From Aquabacterium sp. OR-4 (GTDB lineage: Bacteria; Pseudomonadota; Gammaproteobacteria; Burkholderiales; Burkholderiaceae_C): a stretch of 64,000 nucleotides of DNA. This document shows, in pieces, positions 706-40,427 of this stretch. Each line of letters starts with the position of its first letter. Within the stretch, counting starts at the first letter, position 1. The notes below the pieces were generated by a model. That model ran no database searches, was not told where the DNA came from, and was given only the letters and a program-made list of their open reading frames with translations. Where the stretch lies: contig NZ_JAOCQD020000001.1 in NCBI RefSeq assembly GCF_025290835.2, positions 1,860,001-1,924,000 of the forward strand. The letters run 5' to 3'. The position numbers and the translations under genes are program-made.

Positions 706-2421
706 TTACAGCGCGATGCGGCGGAAGTCGGCCAGCAGCGAGGCGAAGTAGACGTTGAAGCGCGCTGCCGCGGCACCGTCGATCACGCGGTGGTCCCAGC
801 TCAGGCTCAGCGGCAGCATCAGGCGCGGCGCGAACTGCTTGCCGTCCCACTTGGGCTCGATGGCGCTCTTGCACACGCCCATGATGGCCACCTCGGGCGC
901 ATTGATGATGGGCGTGAAGTAGCGCCCGCCAATGCCGCCCAGGCTGCTGATGCTGAAGCAGCCGCCGCTCATGTCGGCCGGGCCCAGCTTGCCGTCGCGC
1001 GCCTTCTTGGCCAGCTCGCCCATCTCGGTGCTGATCTGGAAGATGCCCTTCTTGTCGGCATCCTTGATCACCGGCACCACCAGGCCGTTGGGTGTGTCGG
1101 CGGCAAAGCCGATGTGGAAGTAGTTCTTCAGCACCAGGCTGCCGTCGCCGTCCAGGCTGGCATTGAACTCGGGGAACTTCTTCAGCGCGGCCACGGCGGC
1201 CTTGATCATGAAGGCCAGCATCGTGACCTTGACGCCGCTCTTCTCGTTCTCCTTGTTCAATTGAACGCGGAAGGCTTCGAGATCGGTGATGTCGGCATCG
1301 TCGTGGTTGGTGACATGCGGAATCACCACCCAGTTGCGGTGCAGGTTGGCGCCGCTGATCTTCTTGATGCGCGACAGGTCCTTGCGCTCGACCGGGCCGA
1401 ACTTGGCAAAGTCGACCTTGGGCCAGGGCAGCAGGCCCGGGAACGCGCCCTCGCCGCCGGCCGCAGCGGCGGGCGCCGGGGCCTTGGCCTTTTGCGCCGC
1501 GGTCATCACCGCGCCGGCCATCACGTTCTTGACGAAGCCCTGCACGTCGCCCTGCGTGATGCGGCCCTTGGGTCCGCTGCCGGCCACCTCGGCCAGCGGC
1601 ACACCCAGCTCACGTGCCAGCCGGCGGATCGTCGGCGAGGCATGCGGCAGCTGGCCGGTGGGGGCGCCGCCAGGCTGGTGCGCCGGCACAGCCGCCACCG
1701 CCGCAGCCGGGGCTGCCACGCTGGCCGGGGGTGCGGCGGCCGGGCTGGCCGCCGGAGCGGCCGCGGCCGCAGCCACCGGCGCCGCCGCGGCGGGGGTGGC
1801 GGGGGCGGCGGGGGCGGCGGCAACGCCGGCCACTTCCACCAGGGCCACCAGCGAGCCCTTGCGAACCTTGTCGCCCAGCGTCACGCGCAGCGCCTTCAGC
1901 ACGCCGGCGTGGCTGCTGGGGATCTCCATCGAGGCCTTGTCGGACTCGACCGTGATCAGGCTCTGCTCGAGCTTGATGGTGTCGCCCGGCTTGACCATCA
2001 CCTCGATCACCGCCACTTCGTCGAAGTCGCCGATGTCGGGCACCAGCACCTCGACCACGCCGCCCGATGCGGCGGGGGCGGCCGCGGCCGGCGCCGGCGC
2101 CGCAGCGGCGGCCACCGCCGCCACCGGGGCTGCCACGGCCGGGGCCGGGGCCGGTGCGGGTGCGGGCGCCGCAGCGGCGCCGCCGGCCGCCTCCAGCATC
2201 AGCAGCAACGTGCCCTGGTTCACGGTGTCGCCGATGGCCACCCTGAGCTCCTTCACCACGCCGGCATGGCTGGACGGAATCTCCATCGAGGCCTTGTCGC
2301 TCTCCACGGTGATCAGGCTCTGGTCCACCGCCACGGTGTCACCGGGCTTGACCAGCAGTTCGATCACCGCCACGTCCTTGAAGTCGCCGATGTCCGGGAC
2401 CTTGACTTCCACGATTGCCAT
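706..2421 (-). CDS. aceF: Pyruvate dehydrogenase E2, dihydrolipoyllysine acetyltransferase
   Basis: 571 residues. It transfers acetyl groups from E1-bound hydroxyethyl-TPP through lipoate to CoA. Two N-terminal lipoyl domains each contain [13 protein letters not shown], with the lipoylated lysines at about K43 and K162. They are joined by long Ala/Pro linkers. A peripheral-subunit-binding domain follows ([15 protein letters not shown], near residue 265), then a C-terminal catalytic domain ending with the active-site motif [16 protein letters not shown]. coli E2 has three lipoyl domains; two here plus one on LpdA is a common betaproteobacterial arrangement. The ATG at 2421 has GGAG upstream and lies 31 bases after aceE. 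Confidence 0.97.
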
Positions 2422-36391: not shown

Positions 36392-36715
36392 ATGACCCAC
36401 GTCGTCACCGAAGCATGCATCCGTTGCAAGTACACCGACTGCGTCGATGTCTGCCCGGTGGACTGCTTCCGCGAAGGCCCGAACTTCCTCGTCATCGACC
36501 CGGACGAGTGCATTGACTGCGCCGTGTGCATTCCCGAGTGCCCGGTCAACGCTATCCTGCCCGAAGAGGACGTGCCGGGCGACCAGCAGCAGTACATCGC
36601 GCTGAACGCCGATCTGGCCAAGGGTTGGCCCAGCATCACCAAGCGCAAGGCCTCGCTGCCCGACGCCGATGAATGGAAAGACCGCAAGAACAAGCTGGGC
36701 GAGCTGATCAAGTAA
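36392..36715 (+). CDS. fdxA: FdxA-type 7Fe ferredoxin
   Basis: 107 residues, starting [17 protein letters not shown]. Cysteine patterns [14 protein letters not shown] and [12 protein letters not shown] fit a 3Fe-4S/4Fe-4S ferredoxin. Cytoplasmic electron carrier. A GC hairpin (36722-36738) follows the stop, and the reductase gene starts 49 bases downstream. Confidence 0.95.
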
Positions 36716-36764: not shown

Positions 36765-37829
36765 ATGACCCAGCCCACCGCCCCGATCGAGACCGATGCC
36801 CTGGTCATCGGCGCCGGCCCGGTGGGCCTGTTCGCGGTGTTCGAGCTGGGTCTGCTCGAGCTGCGCGCCCAGCTGGTCGACACCCTGCCCCAGGTGGGCG
36901 GCCAGTGCACCGAGCTTTACGCCGACAAGCCGATCTACGACGTGCCGGGCATCCCGGTGACCACCGGGCGCGCCCTGGTGGATCAGCTGATGCGTCAGGC
37001 CGCGCCGTTTGCGCCCGGGCTGCACCTGGGCCAGCTGCTGGCCACGCTGCAGCGCGAGGCCGATGGCCGCTGGCGTGCCACCACCGACCACGGCACCAGC
37101 TTCCTGGCCCGCGTGGTGTTCATCGCCGCGGGCGCCGGGGCCTTCGTGCCGCGCAGCATCACGCTCGACGGGCTCGACCGGCACCTCGGCAGCCAGGCCG
37201 CCTATCAGCTGGACGACGCAGCCAGCGTGGCCGGCCGCCAGGTGGTGATCCTGGGCGACGAAGATGCCGCACTCGAGCAGGCCATTGCGCTGGCCGAGGC
37301 GGCCAGCCAGGGCCCGGCCCGCGTCACCCTGGTGCACCGGCGCGATGCCTTTCGCGCCGATGAAGCCACCGTGGCCCGCTTTCAGGCCTTGCGCGCGCAG
37401 GGCGCGCTGCATTTCGTGGCCGGCCAGCCCAGCGCGCTGCTGGAAGACGCGGCAGGCCGCCTGCTGGCGCTGGACCTGGCCACGCCCGAGGGCGGCAGCG
37501 TTCGGCTGCCGCTCGATGCCCTGCTGATCCGCATGGGCCTGAGCCCACGCCTGGGCCCGATCAGCCACTGGGGCCTGCAGCTCGAGCGCAAGCAGCTGGT
37601 GGTAGAAACCGCCGGCTTCCAGACCCAGGCGCCAGGCATCTTTGCGGTGGGCGACATCATCACCTACCCCGGCAAACGCAAGCTGCTGCTGTGCGGCTTT
37701 CACGAGGCCACGCTGGCGGCCTTTGCCGCGGCGGCCCATGTGCGCCCGGGCCAGCCGGTGCACCTGCAGTACACCACCACCAGCCCGCGCCTGCACCAGC
37801 TGCTGGGCGTGGCGTCGCCGCCACGCTGA
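36765..37829 (+). CDS. Ferredoxin-NADP(+) reductase, thioredoxin-reductase-like type
   Basis: 354 residues. FAD motif IGAGPVGLFAVFELGLL near residue 16, VGGQCTELYADKPIYDVPG, and the second nucleotide-binding stretch VVILGDEDAALEQA. The redox-active CxxC of thioredoxin reductase is lacking, as in the bacterial FNR2 group. It likely reduces the neighbouring ferredoxin from NADPH, possibly serving sulfite reduction. Confidence 0.9.
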   Translation: MTQPTAPIETDALVIGAGPVGLFAVFELGLLELRAQLVDTLPQVGGQCTELYADKPIYDVPGIPVTTGRALVDQLMRQAAPFAPGLHLGQLLATLQREADGRWRATTDHGTSFLARVVFIAAGAGAFVPRSITLDGLDRHLGSQAAYQLDDAASVAGRQVVILGDEDAALEQAIALAEAASQGPARVTLVHRRDAFRADEATVARFQALRAQGALHFVAGQPSALLEDAAGRLLALDLATPEGGSVRLPLDALLIRMGLSPRLGPISHWGLQLERKQLVVETAGFQTQAPGIFAVGDIITYPGKRKLLLCGFHEATLAAFAAAAHVRPGQPVHLQYTTTSPRLHQLLGVASPPR

Positions 37830-37929
37830 TGGCCACGCCGCAGGCGGCACCCGGCCGTCAGCGGCGCCGCGCTTCACGGCCGCGACATAATCCACGGCGC
37901 TGACCGGCCCGCGCGGCCGCCAGCGCATT

Positions 37930-38028
37930 CGCTAGGGGTGTTGCCCTGCCCGTTCTTCACCGGACGGACAGGGCGACTGAGAGAGTCCCTTTGAACCTGA
38001 TCGAGGTAATCCTCGCGTACGGGAAGCG
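37930..38028 (+). ncRNA. TPP riboswitch (THI element)
   Basis: Contains the conserved TPP aptamer segments in order: AGGGGTG (37934-37940), CTGAGAG (from 37977), CCCTTTGAACCTGAT (from 37987), and GTAATCCTCGCGTACGGGAAGCG to 38028 (longest conserved pieces GTAAT and CGGGAAGC). CGCT (37930-37933) pairs with AGCG (38025-38028) as P1. A possible expression-platform hairpin GCGCGCCC / GGGCGCGC follows at 38039-38077. It lies 92 bases before the TonB-dependent receptor and should lower its expression when thiamin pyrophosphate is abundant. Confidence 0.93.
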
Positions 38029-38120
38029 ACCTGCCGCAGCGCGCCCTGCTTCCTGTCGTCTCTCGCGTCGGGCGCGCCAGCCAGTGTTCGTGGTCCCGTG
38101 ATTGCTGCAAAGGCATCACG

Positions 38121-40313
38121 ATGGCATCCATCCAGTCTCCGCACCACCGCAAACGTGGTGCTCTTCATCCTCTTGCACTGGCCGCCGCCACGCTGTGCGC
38201 GCTGGCCAGCGGCGCTGGCCATGCGCAGGAGGAACCCGCCCGCATCACCATCAGCGGCCGCGCGAGCGCTGCCCAGGCGGTGGGCGTCTCGGGCTTTGGC
38301 GACGTGCCGCTGTGGCGCCTGCCGATCTCGGCCACGGTGATCCGCACCGATCAGCTGGCCGACGCCGCCATCACCGGCCTGGGTGACCTCACCCGGCTGG
38401 ACGCCGGCGCCACCGACGCCTACAACGCACCCGGCTACTGGAACCAGCTGGCCGTGCGCGGCTTCACGCTGGACAACCGCTTCAACTACCGCCGCGACGG
38501 CCTGCCGATCAACGCCGAAACGGTGATCGGCCTGGACAACAAGCAGGCGCTGGAGCTGCTCAAGGGCGCCAGCGGCCTGCAGGCCGGCACCAGCGCGCCG
38601 GGCGGCCTGCTCAACCTGACGGTCAAACGCCCCAAGGTCGCACAGCGCAGCGCCATGCTGGGCTGGCAGCAAGACGGCACGCTGGGCGCCGCCATCGACA
38701 TCGGCGACCGGGCCGGCGCCCAGGGCGAGCTGGGCTGGCGCATCAACGCCAGTGCCTCCCGGCTCGACCCCAGCACCCACAACGCCCAGGGCCACCGCTG
38801 GCTGTGGGCCGCCGCAGGTGATCTGCGCCTGAGCGGCGGCACGCTGATCGAGGCCGAGCTCGAGCTCAGCCGCCAGAGCCAGCCCAGCACGCCCGGCTTC
38901 AGCCTGCTGGGCGACCGCCTGCCCAGCGCCGACAGCATCGACCCGCGCCTGAACCTCAACCGCCAGCCCTGGAGCCTGCCGGTGGTGATGGACGGCCGCA
39001 TCGGCTCGGTCCGCATCAGCCAGCCGCTGAGCGCCGATGTGCAGCTGGTGGCCCACGGCATGCGCCAGCGCCTGGACAGCGACGACCGCATCGCGTTCCC
39101 CTTTGGCTGCAGCGCGGCCGAAGACTACAGCCGCTACTGCGCCGACGGCAGCTTCGATCTCTACGACTTTCGCAGCGAGAACGAACGCCGCACCAGCGAC
39201 GCCTTCGACCTCTCGCTGCAGGGCCGTGCCGCCACCGGCAGCCTGCAGCACCAGTTCAACCTGGGCCTGCTGTTCACACGCTACGCCACCCGCCTGGGAC
39301 GCCAGGCCTACAACTGGGTGGGCGTGGGCAGCATCTACCAAGACGAGGCTCTGGACCCCGACCCCAGCCTGACCGACGACAGCACCAACCGCCGCGAGCG
39401 CACGGTGGAACTGCACCTGCAGGACAGCCTGACCCTCAGCGATACGCTGACCGCCTGGGCCGGCCTGCGCCACAGCCGCCTGCACCGCGAAAGCCGCTAC
39501 ACCCACCCCGACGACCCGCGGCCCACCGCCTACGCGCAAAGCCTCAGCACGCCCTGGCTGGGCCTCAGCCGGCAGCTGGGCACGGGCAGCAGTGCCTACC
39601 TCAGCTGGGGCCAGGGCATGGAAAGCGAGGTGGTGCCCAACCGCGCCCGCTACGCCAATGCCGGACAGGCCCTGCCCGCACTGAAGAGCCGGCAGCTCGA
39701 GGCCGGCTACAAATCAAGCAGCCGCTCGCTCGACTGGCGCGTGGCGGCCTTCGACATCCGCCGCCCGGTGTGGAGCGACCTGCTGGCCGCCACCGGCGTG
39801 CCTGTTGACGGCTGCAGCAGCAGCGCGCCCTGCCGACGCGCCGCCGACGGTGCGGCACGCCACCAGGGCCTGGAAGCCGAGGCCGAGTGGCGCAGCGGCC
39901 CCTGGGCCCTGCGTGGCAGCGCCATGGCCTTGCACGCCCGGCGCGAAGGCTCGGCCGACAGCCAGGCCAACGGCAAGCAGCCGACCAATGTGCCGGCCCT
40001 CAGCCTGAAGGCCCAGGCCGCCTGGCAGGTACCCGCACTGCCCGCCCTGGCCCTGCTCGGCTTCATCACCCATGAAGGCCGGCGCCAGGTGCTGCCCAAG
40101 GAGCAGATCGCCACACCGGGCTGGACCCGCATCGACCTCGGCGCCCGCTACAGCCAGCGCCTGGGCGCGGGCACCAGCCTGGTCTGGCGCGCCGGCGTCG
40201 ACAACCTGGCCAACCGACGCGCCTGGAAGGAAGCCCCCTTCCAGTACGGCCACGCCTACCTCTACCCCCTGGCCCCGCGAACTTTTCATGCCAGTGCCCA
40301 CCTGAATTTTTGA
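38121..40313 (+). CDS. TonB-dependent outer-membrane receptor, candidate thiamin (precursor) transporter
   Basis: 730 residues. A signal peptide ends in GHAQ (about residue 35). A plug domain follows (AVRGFTLDNRFNYRRDGLPI, GASGLQAGTSAPGGLLNL), then a 22-strand-type beta-barrel ending in a C-terminal Phe (SAHLNF). By similarity it falls with TonB-dependent siderophore receptors, but the TPP riboswitch in its leader points to thiamin, a thiamin phosphate or a pyrimidine/thiazole precursor as ligand. AAGG lies upstream of the ATG. The stop codon overlaps the tRNA-Asn promoter. Confidence 0.9.
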   Translation: MASIQSPHHRKRGALHPLALAAATLCALASGAGHAQEEPARITISGRASAAQAVGVSGFGDVPLWRLPISATVIRTDQLADAAITGLGDLTRLDAGATDAYNAPGYWNQLAVRGFTLDNRFNYRRDGLPINAETVIGLDNKQALELLKGASGLQAGTSAPGGLLNLTVKRPKVAQRSAMLGWQQDGTLGAAIDIGDRAGAQGELGWRINASASRLDPSTHNAQGHRWLWAAAGDLRLSGGTLIEAELELSRQSQPSTPGFSLLGDRLPSADSIDPRLNLNRQPWSLPVVMDGRIGSVRISQPLSADVQLVAHGMRQRLDSDDRIAFPFGCSAAEDYSRYCADGSFDLYDFRSENERRTSDAFDLSLQGRAATGSLQHQFNLGLLFTRYATRLGRQAYNWVGVGSIYQDEALDPDPSLTDDSTNRRERTVELHLQDSLTLSDTLTAWAGLRHSRLHRESRYTHPDDPRPTAYAQSLSTPWLGLSRQLGTGSSAYLSWGQGMESEVVPNRARYANAGQALPALKSRQLEAGYKSSSRSLDWRVAAFDIRRPVWSDLLAATGVPVDGCSSSAPCRRAADGAARHQGLEAEAEWRSGPWALRGSAMALHARREGSADSQANGKQPTNVPALSLKAQAAWQVPALPALALLGFITHEGRRQVLPKEQIATPGWTRIDLGARYSQRLGAGTSLVWRAGVDNLANRRAWKEAPFQYGHAYLYPLAPRTFHASAHLNF

Positions 40314-40351: not shown

Positions 40352-40427
40352 TCCCCGATAGCTCAGTCGGTAGAGCGCCGGACTGTTAATCCGTAGGTCC
40401 CTGGTTCGAGCCCAGGTCGGGGAGCCA
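40352..40427 (+). tRNA. tRNA-Asn (anticodon GTT)
   Basis: 76 bases. Acceptor stem TCCCCGA / TCGGGGA closes perfectly. D-loop AGCTCAGTCGGTAGAGC, anticodon loop CTGTTAA with GTT, T-arm GGTTCGAGCCC, and an encoded CCA end. Confidence 0.98.

Follow-up and report, generated by a model that had tools for sequence, protein, structure and literature searches.

The window analysed here, a 64,000-nucleotide stretch of the genome of Aquabacterium sp. OR-4 (contig NZ_JAOCQD020000001.1, positions 1,860,001 to 1,924,000), contains a thiamin pyrophosphate (TPP) riboswitch followed by the gene of a TonB-dependent outer-membrane receptor, and the two very probably form a one-gene vitamin B1 uptake unit. What carries this conclusion is present in the sequence: the aptamer and its conserved site, a hairpin at the start codon that covaries with the aptamer, the pathway genes missing from the host, and the link between orthologues of the receptor and thiamin (thi) genes. 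One trait by which thiamin-specific outer-membrane receptors are classed is a TPP riboswitch or a thi-gene neighbourhood, and at the window receptor it takes the form of the presence of the element. The parts of the unit, in coordinates of the window, are these:

37924-38041, + strand: TPP riboswitch aptamer, RF00059 (cmscan, 53.6 bits, E 7e-10), with its paired core at 37929-38029
38018-38024, + strand: aptamer 3' strand TACGGGA, the proposed antisequestor, from its covariation with the 5' arm of the start hairpin
38094-38100, + strand: TCCCGTG, the predicted pairing partner of 38018-38024, overlapping the 5' arm of the hairpin
38097-38120, + strand: start-region hairpin CGTGAT..ATCACG, directly before the ATG and in the same position as the GCCAT..ATGGC hairpin of relatives
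38109-38113, + strand: Shine-Dalgarno-like AAAGG, in and beside the hairpin loop
38121-40313, + strand: TonB-dependent receptor of 730 amino acids (Pfam Plug and TonB barrel), candidate importer of thiamin or thiamin phosphates
39081-39167, + strand: codons 321-349, a clade-typical loop, DD...G(C)...G.(F/Y)..(Y/W)D, recognised as an alignment motif, with two cysteines in the window protein

The original prediction had named four THI-box segments and a closing P1 helix, and all of them are found in the order it gave: AGGGGTG (37934-37940), CTGAGAG, CCCTTTGAACCTGAT (from 37987) and CGGGAAGC (38020-38027), closed by TCGCT/AGCGA (37929-37933/38025-38029). The covariance-model search that it proposed as a check returned a significant TPP score, since a sensitive cmscan of 37800-38200 gave the RF00059 match listed above against an Rfam cut-off of 54.3 bits, which is a library threshold and not a biological trait. 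When the whole window was scanned at gathering thresholds, the riboswitch was not reported and one tRNA was the sole match. In a search of the entire genome (6.63 Mb) the window aptamer is one of the two RF00059 matches listed (E 2.8e-9), and the match is far beyond chance, though slightly below the curated cut-off. A covariance model that we built ourselves (R1) from 21 aptamers, 20 from the 23 receptor-bearing genomes described below and one from genome G052, gives the window aptamer (locus L005) 92.3 bits, L005 being one of its training sequences; the core columns of the aptamer are invariant across the 21. The gap between element and receptor is short, as had been claimed, although from the end of P1 (38029) to the receptor's ATG (38121) we count 91 bases and not 92, and no thiamin biosynthesis gene lies between them, again as claimed. 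Neither a sigma-70 promoter nor an intrinsic terminator was found in 37780-38200; attenuation by such a terminator is therefore unsupported.

The receptor and RF00059 were each searched for in the same 60 related genomes, the latter with stricter filters by which weak matches are lost. Orthologues of the receptor (at least 47% identity) occur in 23 of the 60, partial or split in G007, G011 and G026, and directly upstream of 22 of these 23, on the same strand, there is an RF00059 match. Seventeen of the 22 elements lie at or over the Rfam cut-off and five, the window's included, lie under it, the weakest at 39.3 bits (G032). Before the receptor of the remaining genome, G015, Rfam shows no element at E 0.001; R1 finds one there with 60.1 bits and E 1.6e-13. 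The survey of orthologues for which the original prediction had called thus places an element before every one of them, 22 by Rfam and the last by R1. G015 retains thiC with a TPP element of its own, and its receptor element (locus L015) is possibly a decaying riboswitch in a thiamin producer. The TPP-like elements ahead of the receptor at L015:1204-1304 and L081:3114-3214 share the R1 score of 60.1 bits.

The same association recurs in a second collection, 80 named loci from Rubrivivax, Aquabacterium, Roseateles, Paucibacter, Rhizobacter, Variovorax, Ramlibacter and others, which partly overlaps the set of 60 genomes (e.g., L006/L071), so that the locus and genome counts are not independent. 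R1 finds an element at 59 of these loci; the 21 without one comprise 20 from Variovorax, in which thiG and thiE stand directly upstream of the receptor (verified with Pfam for L105 and L108), and L141, whose upstream sequence extends over 56 bases. At one Variovorax locus, L107, the TPP element and thiG-thiE occur together. Altogether, the receptor is tied to a TPP element or to thiG-thiE in 79 of the 80. More distant receptors behave similarly: in family f18, where 11 genomes of one genus were searched and three gave no receptor match, receptors of about 30% identity stand directly behind a TPP element by R1 in all eight genomes with a match, and a receptor of family f26 (G085), about 30% identical to the window's, is also directly behind one. 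Rfam confirms the elements at the seven f18 loci given to it and at G085 with E 0.001 or better, and a TPP element is absent from all nine stretches with other receptors that were fetched from this set. A tree of 50 receptors gives full support to the f1 clade (27 sequences), whose sister group contains the f18 and f26 receptors and also the element-less L028 and L165, the union of 37 being supported at 93/95; several branches of this tree are long, that of L165 among them, and L111 and L123 were left out for lack of a usable open reading frame.

The thiamin metabolism of the host is consistent with a need for uptake. Searches of its genome (99.99% complete) gave no match for thiC, thiE or ThiG, and thiL is present (283.5 bits); hence the bacterium needs preformed thiamin or a thiamin phosphate. 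All three genes are absent from 17 of the 23 carriers of the receptor, the host included; 11 of the 17 have a completeness of 90% or more and a contamination of 5% or less, and two are poorly complete (G001, 61%; G011, 70%). Several pathway-less carriers give short ThiG matches of about 20-21 bits, that of G004 reaches 27.3 bits with in-frame neighbours and exceeds Pfam's low cut-off, and G020 has one thiE match of 20.9 bits; we regard these as chance or fragment matches. The six remaining carriers have the pathway (G003, G015, G027, G028, G031 and G032), the thiC of G028 being a contig-end piece. Seen from the other side, 17 of the 22 f1 genomes that have none of the three genes carry the receptor. 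None of the three genomes that lack thiC and keep thiE and ThiG (G021, G044 and G045) has an orthologue, which suggests that the receptor tracks a need for the whole vitamin more than a need for its pyrimidine half. Thiamin pyrophosphokinase (TPK) is over its cut-off in none of the 60 genomes, and ThiL must therefore receive thiamin monophosphate (TMP), either taken up as such or produced by an as yet unrecognised kinase.

How the riboswitch could act on the receptor is suggested by the leader between them. A start codon, taken as the earliest ATG within 260 bases to begin a long frame, could be placed in 79 of 82 TPP-linked loci (none for L107, L110 and L111; some placements, for example those of L027, L095, L118 and L122, are doubtful). 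At 54 of the 79 a GCCAT..ATGGC hairpin buries the start codon, at six, the window included, a GTGAT..ATCAC hairpin stands just before the ATG with Shine-Dalgarno-like bases at its loop, and three Paucibacter loci have the compensated pair GTCAT/ATGAC. The start stem is matched by at most 5% of shuffled sequences at 49 of the 79 loci versus 5 of 34 start candidates from the element-less Variovorax loci; the stem of the window alone is unexceptional, 20% of shuffles reaching it. The aptamer strand and the hairpin arm change together, CAGGG occurring with CCTGCC or CCCTGTC, ATGGG with CCTGTG, and, in the window, ACGGG with CCCGT. Summed over 64 loci, the antisequestor pairing score is 872 versus 852 ± 4.3 after permutation, and none of 2000 permutations reaches the observed value, a significance that is inflated by the relatedness of the loci. 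For this test 65 of the 82 loci were picked for a recognisable hairpin; L018 was dropped because no arm was found, and L015, L081 and L086, in which no aptamer strand was found, added nothing to the score. No foreign arm, of 63 compared, pairs as well with the window's aptamer strand as the window's own arm does; in the reverse comparison, five of 63 foreign strands equal or exceed the native strand in pairing with the window arm. The conserved start hairpin, its covariation with the aptamer 3' strand and the terminator-less leader lead us to read the element as an off-switch whose control is probably translational.

Folding of the window leader with RNAfold gave a free structure of -90.8 kcal/mol that contains the helix ACGGGAAGCG/TGCTTCCTGT. 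This helix is reached by 1% of shuffles in the window and a similar one exists in L018 (4%), and nothing like it was found in the other 18 of 20 loci folded, and for that reason it was rejected as a common switch. With the aptamer enforced (-80.5), the accessibility of the start shifts little and in no single direction; the case for the switch is thus a comparative one.

The following cycle can be proposed, in which the ligand, the direction of control, its translational level and transport itself are what we infer from these sequence features. At low cellular TPP nothing would keep the aptamer 3' strand from pairing with the 5' arm of the start hairpin; the hairpin would thereby be opened, and the receptor would be translated and placed in the outer membrane, where it would import preformed thiamin (or TMP or TPP) with energy delivered through TonB. 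Ample TPP would bind the aptamer, the start hairpin would form and translation would stop. The host, apparently unable to make thiamin, would convert TMP to TPP via ThiL. Such units could explain the scavenging of dilute vitamin by environmental Burkholderiales without a thiamin pathway, and the Aquabacterium locus, with a single gene, a single switch and an apparent auxotroph as host, would make a clean test system.

The AlphaFold2 model of the receptor is good (predicted local distance difference test, pLDDT, 87.6) and has the structure of FemA (9ex3, 20% identity) as its top Foldseek match, and the nearest folds are those of the siderophore receptors FemA, BauA, FoxA and FhuA at 17-21% identity; with identities as low as these, the modelled fold points to a transporter and says nothing about its ligand. 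Among NCBIfam models the siderophore receptor TIGR01783 scores best, with 211.9 bits against a cut-off of 223.5, and those of the 120 homologues listed that have a source name are called iron complex outermembrane receptor, TonB-dependent (siderophore) receptor or hypothetical protein; the expectation that homology would attach a siderophore label to the gene was correct. The loop at codons 321-349 is probably extracellular, to judge from the order of the strands in the model with 375-391 and 395-404 counted as one strand. Its motif, a pattern composed after the alignment had been viewed, is present in 32 of the 37 clade sequences and absent from all 13 other receptors; of the 120 homologues listed, 107 have it, the window protein included. 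The best-scoring sequence alignments with FemA and BauA cover receptor residues 351-725 and 362-725, respectively; the loop falls before both.

Could the gene nonetheless encode an ordinary siderophore receptor that the riboswitch serves fortuitously, or because thiamin has some side role in iron metabolism? We consider this very improbable. It would account for TIGR01783 as best named family, for the database names and for the folds at about 20% identity; it would leave unexplained the link to an element or to thiG-thiE at 79 of 80 loci, and the TIGR01783 cut-off is not reached. The best match to a Fur box upstream of the receptor is 10/19, a value that 29% of shuffles attain, and several sister receptors adjoin PnuC-family transporters and kinases. 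The siderophore receptor was thus rejected as a function and retained as a fold. TonB-dependent receptors are often called iron receptors from homology alone, and a TPP switch or thiamin genes before a whole receptor family is a reason to rename its members B1 importers.

Which form of the vitamin enters is a narrower question. The original prediction had allowed for thiamin, its phosphates or a precursor; the Burkholderiales-wide linkage and the Variovorax row of thi genes support this; a precursor would be of little use to a host without thiC, thiE and ThiG, and this leaves intact thiamin or a thiamin phosphate as the candidate ligand. That the receptor takes up a precursor or breakdown product (hydroxymethylpyrimidine (HMP), thiazole, aminopyrimidines) and no intact thiamin seems improbable to us. 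Precursor transporters are also found under TPP riboswitches, according to one survey (PMC3766115), and the six carriers and 20 Variovorax loci that keep thi genes could use precursors; in the other 17 carriers nothing known would join the two halves of the molecule, and the three genomes without thiC that keep thiE and ThiG have no orthologue. A sub-case of vitamin B1 import is that the natural substrate is mainly TMP or TPP, since free thiamin would require a kinase that the host seems to be without. ThiL is present, TPK passes its cut-off in none of the relatives as described, and a single query with E. coli ThiK, run without a positive control, found no match in the host; ThiK-like kinases may vary too much for one query, however, and the host does have a candidate kinase, a NadR-kinase-like frame adjoining a PnuC-family gene. 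This restriction to the phosphates we hold to be rather unlikely.

Several observations weigh against a thiamin uptake unit. The window aptamer scores 0.7 bits below the curated Rfam cut-off, RNAfold of the leader alone favours another helix that breaks the aptamer, so that the proposed switch is not shown by folding, and the receptor's fold is nearest to siderophore receptors. Five genomes (G002, G006, G012, G014 and G019, 82-94% complete) lack the three biosynthesis genes and show neither orthologue nor element, except for a contig-end piece of the receptor in G019. Within f1 the loss of thiC is found in 17 of 23 carriers versus 6 of 13 non-carriers (Fisher p 0.15), an association that we accordingly dropped as evidence. 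The host has no established thiamin transporter in its inner membrane, ThiB not exceeding its cut-off there. In Bacteroides thetaiotaomicron, RNA levels of the receptor operon and the pnuT operon, linked to TPP riboswitches, were not significantly changed by thiamin (PMC5613172).

That THI elements precede TonB-dependent receptors in other groups, as the original prediction stated, is borne out by the literature cited here. One case is OMthi (BT2390) of B. thetaiotaomicron, a TonB-dependent receptor under a TPP riboswitch (PMC5613172; also PMC7366714), whose deletion together with the biosynthesis operon is described as raising the thiamin requirement about tenfold (PMC5613172). OMthi shares with the window gene the type of receptor and the riboswitch, a likeness of description; it belongs to the Bacteroidota, where its gene is usually grouped with pnuT and tnr3 in a single operon, which is split in B. 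thetaiotaomicron, and the window gene has no such partners. Closer to the host, the receptor in a TPP-riboswitch thi operon of Variovorax has been called a predicted thiamine active transporter (PMC10409787). The Variovorax orthologues of the window receptor are 47-50% identical to it and sit directly behind thiG-thiE at 20 loci; for this reason the published receptor very probably belongs to the same family, though it stands at the tail of a row of biosynthesis genes and the window receptor is encoded by a solitary gene behind a riboswitch of its own, in a host that lacks the pathway. Work by Rodionov in 2002 is reportedly linked to a further putative B1 receptor, omr1. The latter, a TonB-dependent receptor from SAR86 and Flavobacteriales, has a TPP riboswitch nearby and is used as a marker (PMC10881298); by its description it resembles the window receptor in type, riboswitch and predicted B1 transport, and it comes from other lineages. 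Putative thiamin receptors also appear in a list in PMC2771747, and PMC3766115 places TPP-controlled transporters in almost all lineages studied but Burkholderia, Ralstonia and three others. Beyond the Variovorax report we found no open-licence paper on a TPP-controlled receptor in this group, and the open-licence literature yielded nothing on the thiamin need of Rubrivivax. A TPP-controlled thiamin receptor is already known in kind; what is new is the breadth of the betaproteobacterial family, the expression platform and the leads to later steps.

These leads, which concern the kinase and the inner-membrane step, come from genes beside the sister receptors. A NadR-kinase-like gene (AAA_28, without the adenylyltransferase part) precedes the TPP element and receptor at seven of the eight f18 loci, and a PnuC-family gene precedes it in turn at six of the eight, the other stretches ending at or near a contig end; at L191, L192, L193 and L194, where both genes lie upstream, the AAA_28 protein is a candidate thiamin kinase. 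G042 (L184:576-4672) has the order receptor, APH-type kinase, PnuC-family gene; E. coli ThiK gave no meaningful BLASTP alignment with this kinase. Two Acinetobacter plasmids (L196:3092-7102 and L197:3159-7177) carry a phosphotransferase, a receptor and pnuC, in that order and without a TPP element, and their kinase, receptor and transporter are related to those of G042 at 35, 43 and 45% identity. These plasmids are mobilizable, and the receptor is annotated there as a siderophore receptor. Burkholderia stagnalis (L198:4336-8466, reading frames judged by eye) has a receptor, a PnuC-like and an APH-like gene. In G005 (L183, G005:C48:33000-39700) a PnuC gene and a full-length NadR are followed by a second receptor of the same clade that has no TPP element and is a candidate outer-membrane importer of nicotinamide riboside. 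Elsewhere than at the receptor, the host itself has a PnuC-family gene (PF04973, 170 bits; over the cut-off of TIGR01528, PnuC, as well) with a NadR-kinase-like frame behind it; the substrate of this transporter may be thiamin or nicotinamide riboside. No PnuC-like match or frame was found in the 8.5 kb fetched around the f26 receptor (G085), and neither pnuC nor a kinase is annotated beside a receptor on a Pseudomonas plasmid. The PnuC and kinase neighbours suggest that the ligands of the clade are of vitamin type, nicotinamide riboside being an alternative in some branches. Tentatively, and with more doubt than confidence, one may extend this to the whole clade marked by the loop (mostly with its two cysteines): it could be the outer-membrane half of Pnu-type vitamin uptake, some branches, those with a TPP riboswitch or thi genes, taking thiamin and others, those with PnuC-NadR or with PnuC and an APH-type kinase, taking nicotinamide riboside or similar cationic ring compounds, and in the thiamin branches the NadR-kinase-like or APH-type protein beside the Pnu transporter might be the missing thiamin kinase wherever there is ThiL but no TPK or recognised ThiK.

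The unit is bounded by genes that lie outside the system:

36392-36715: ferredoxin (Pfam), preceding the oxidoreductase
36765-37829, + strand: NAD(P)/FAD oxidoreductase (Pfam)
40352-40424, + strand: tRNA gene (RF00005, 68.6 bits), the downstream boundary

A relative of the oxidoreductase lies upstream on the same strand at 47 of the 80 named loci.

Other TPP elements were encountered in these genomes. The only other one listed in the host, G000:C3:672685-672792 on the - strand (L003:12686-12793), is upstream of a small PF01910 (Thiamine_BP) protein with an N-terminus that, judged by eye, is signal-like; the same arrangement of element and PF01910 gene recurs in G008 (L172), and a TPP riboswitch before the gene of an exported PF01910 protein could point to a periplasmic thiamin carrier. 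ThiB is over its cut-off in one of 40 genomes, G048 (L178/L175), the sole one with the thiamin ATP-binding cassette (ABC) binding protein TIGR01254, and there a TPP element lies directly upstream. In G028 (L023) two TPP elements stand back to back and diverge, 732-834 (-) and 883-995 (+), facing the contig-end piece of thiC and the receptor. Finally, TPP elements recognised by Rfam precede LuxE-like (PF04443) and LuxC-like (PF05893) genes, with an ABC ATPase and a permease behind them, in G033 (L174:393-4667, - strand) and G022 (L173:1074-5387, + strand), the genes being assigned by Pfam for L174 and by similar frames for L173; the Lux-like genes are an odd content for a TPP regulon.

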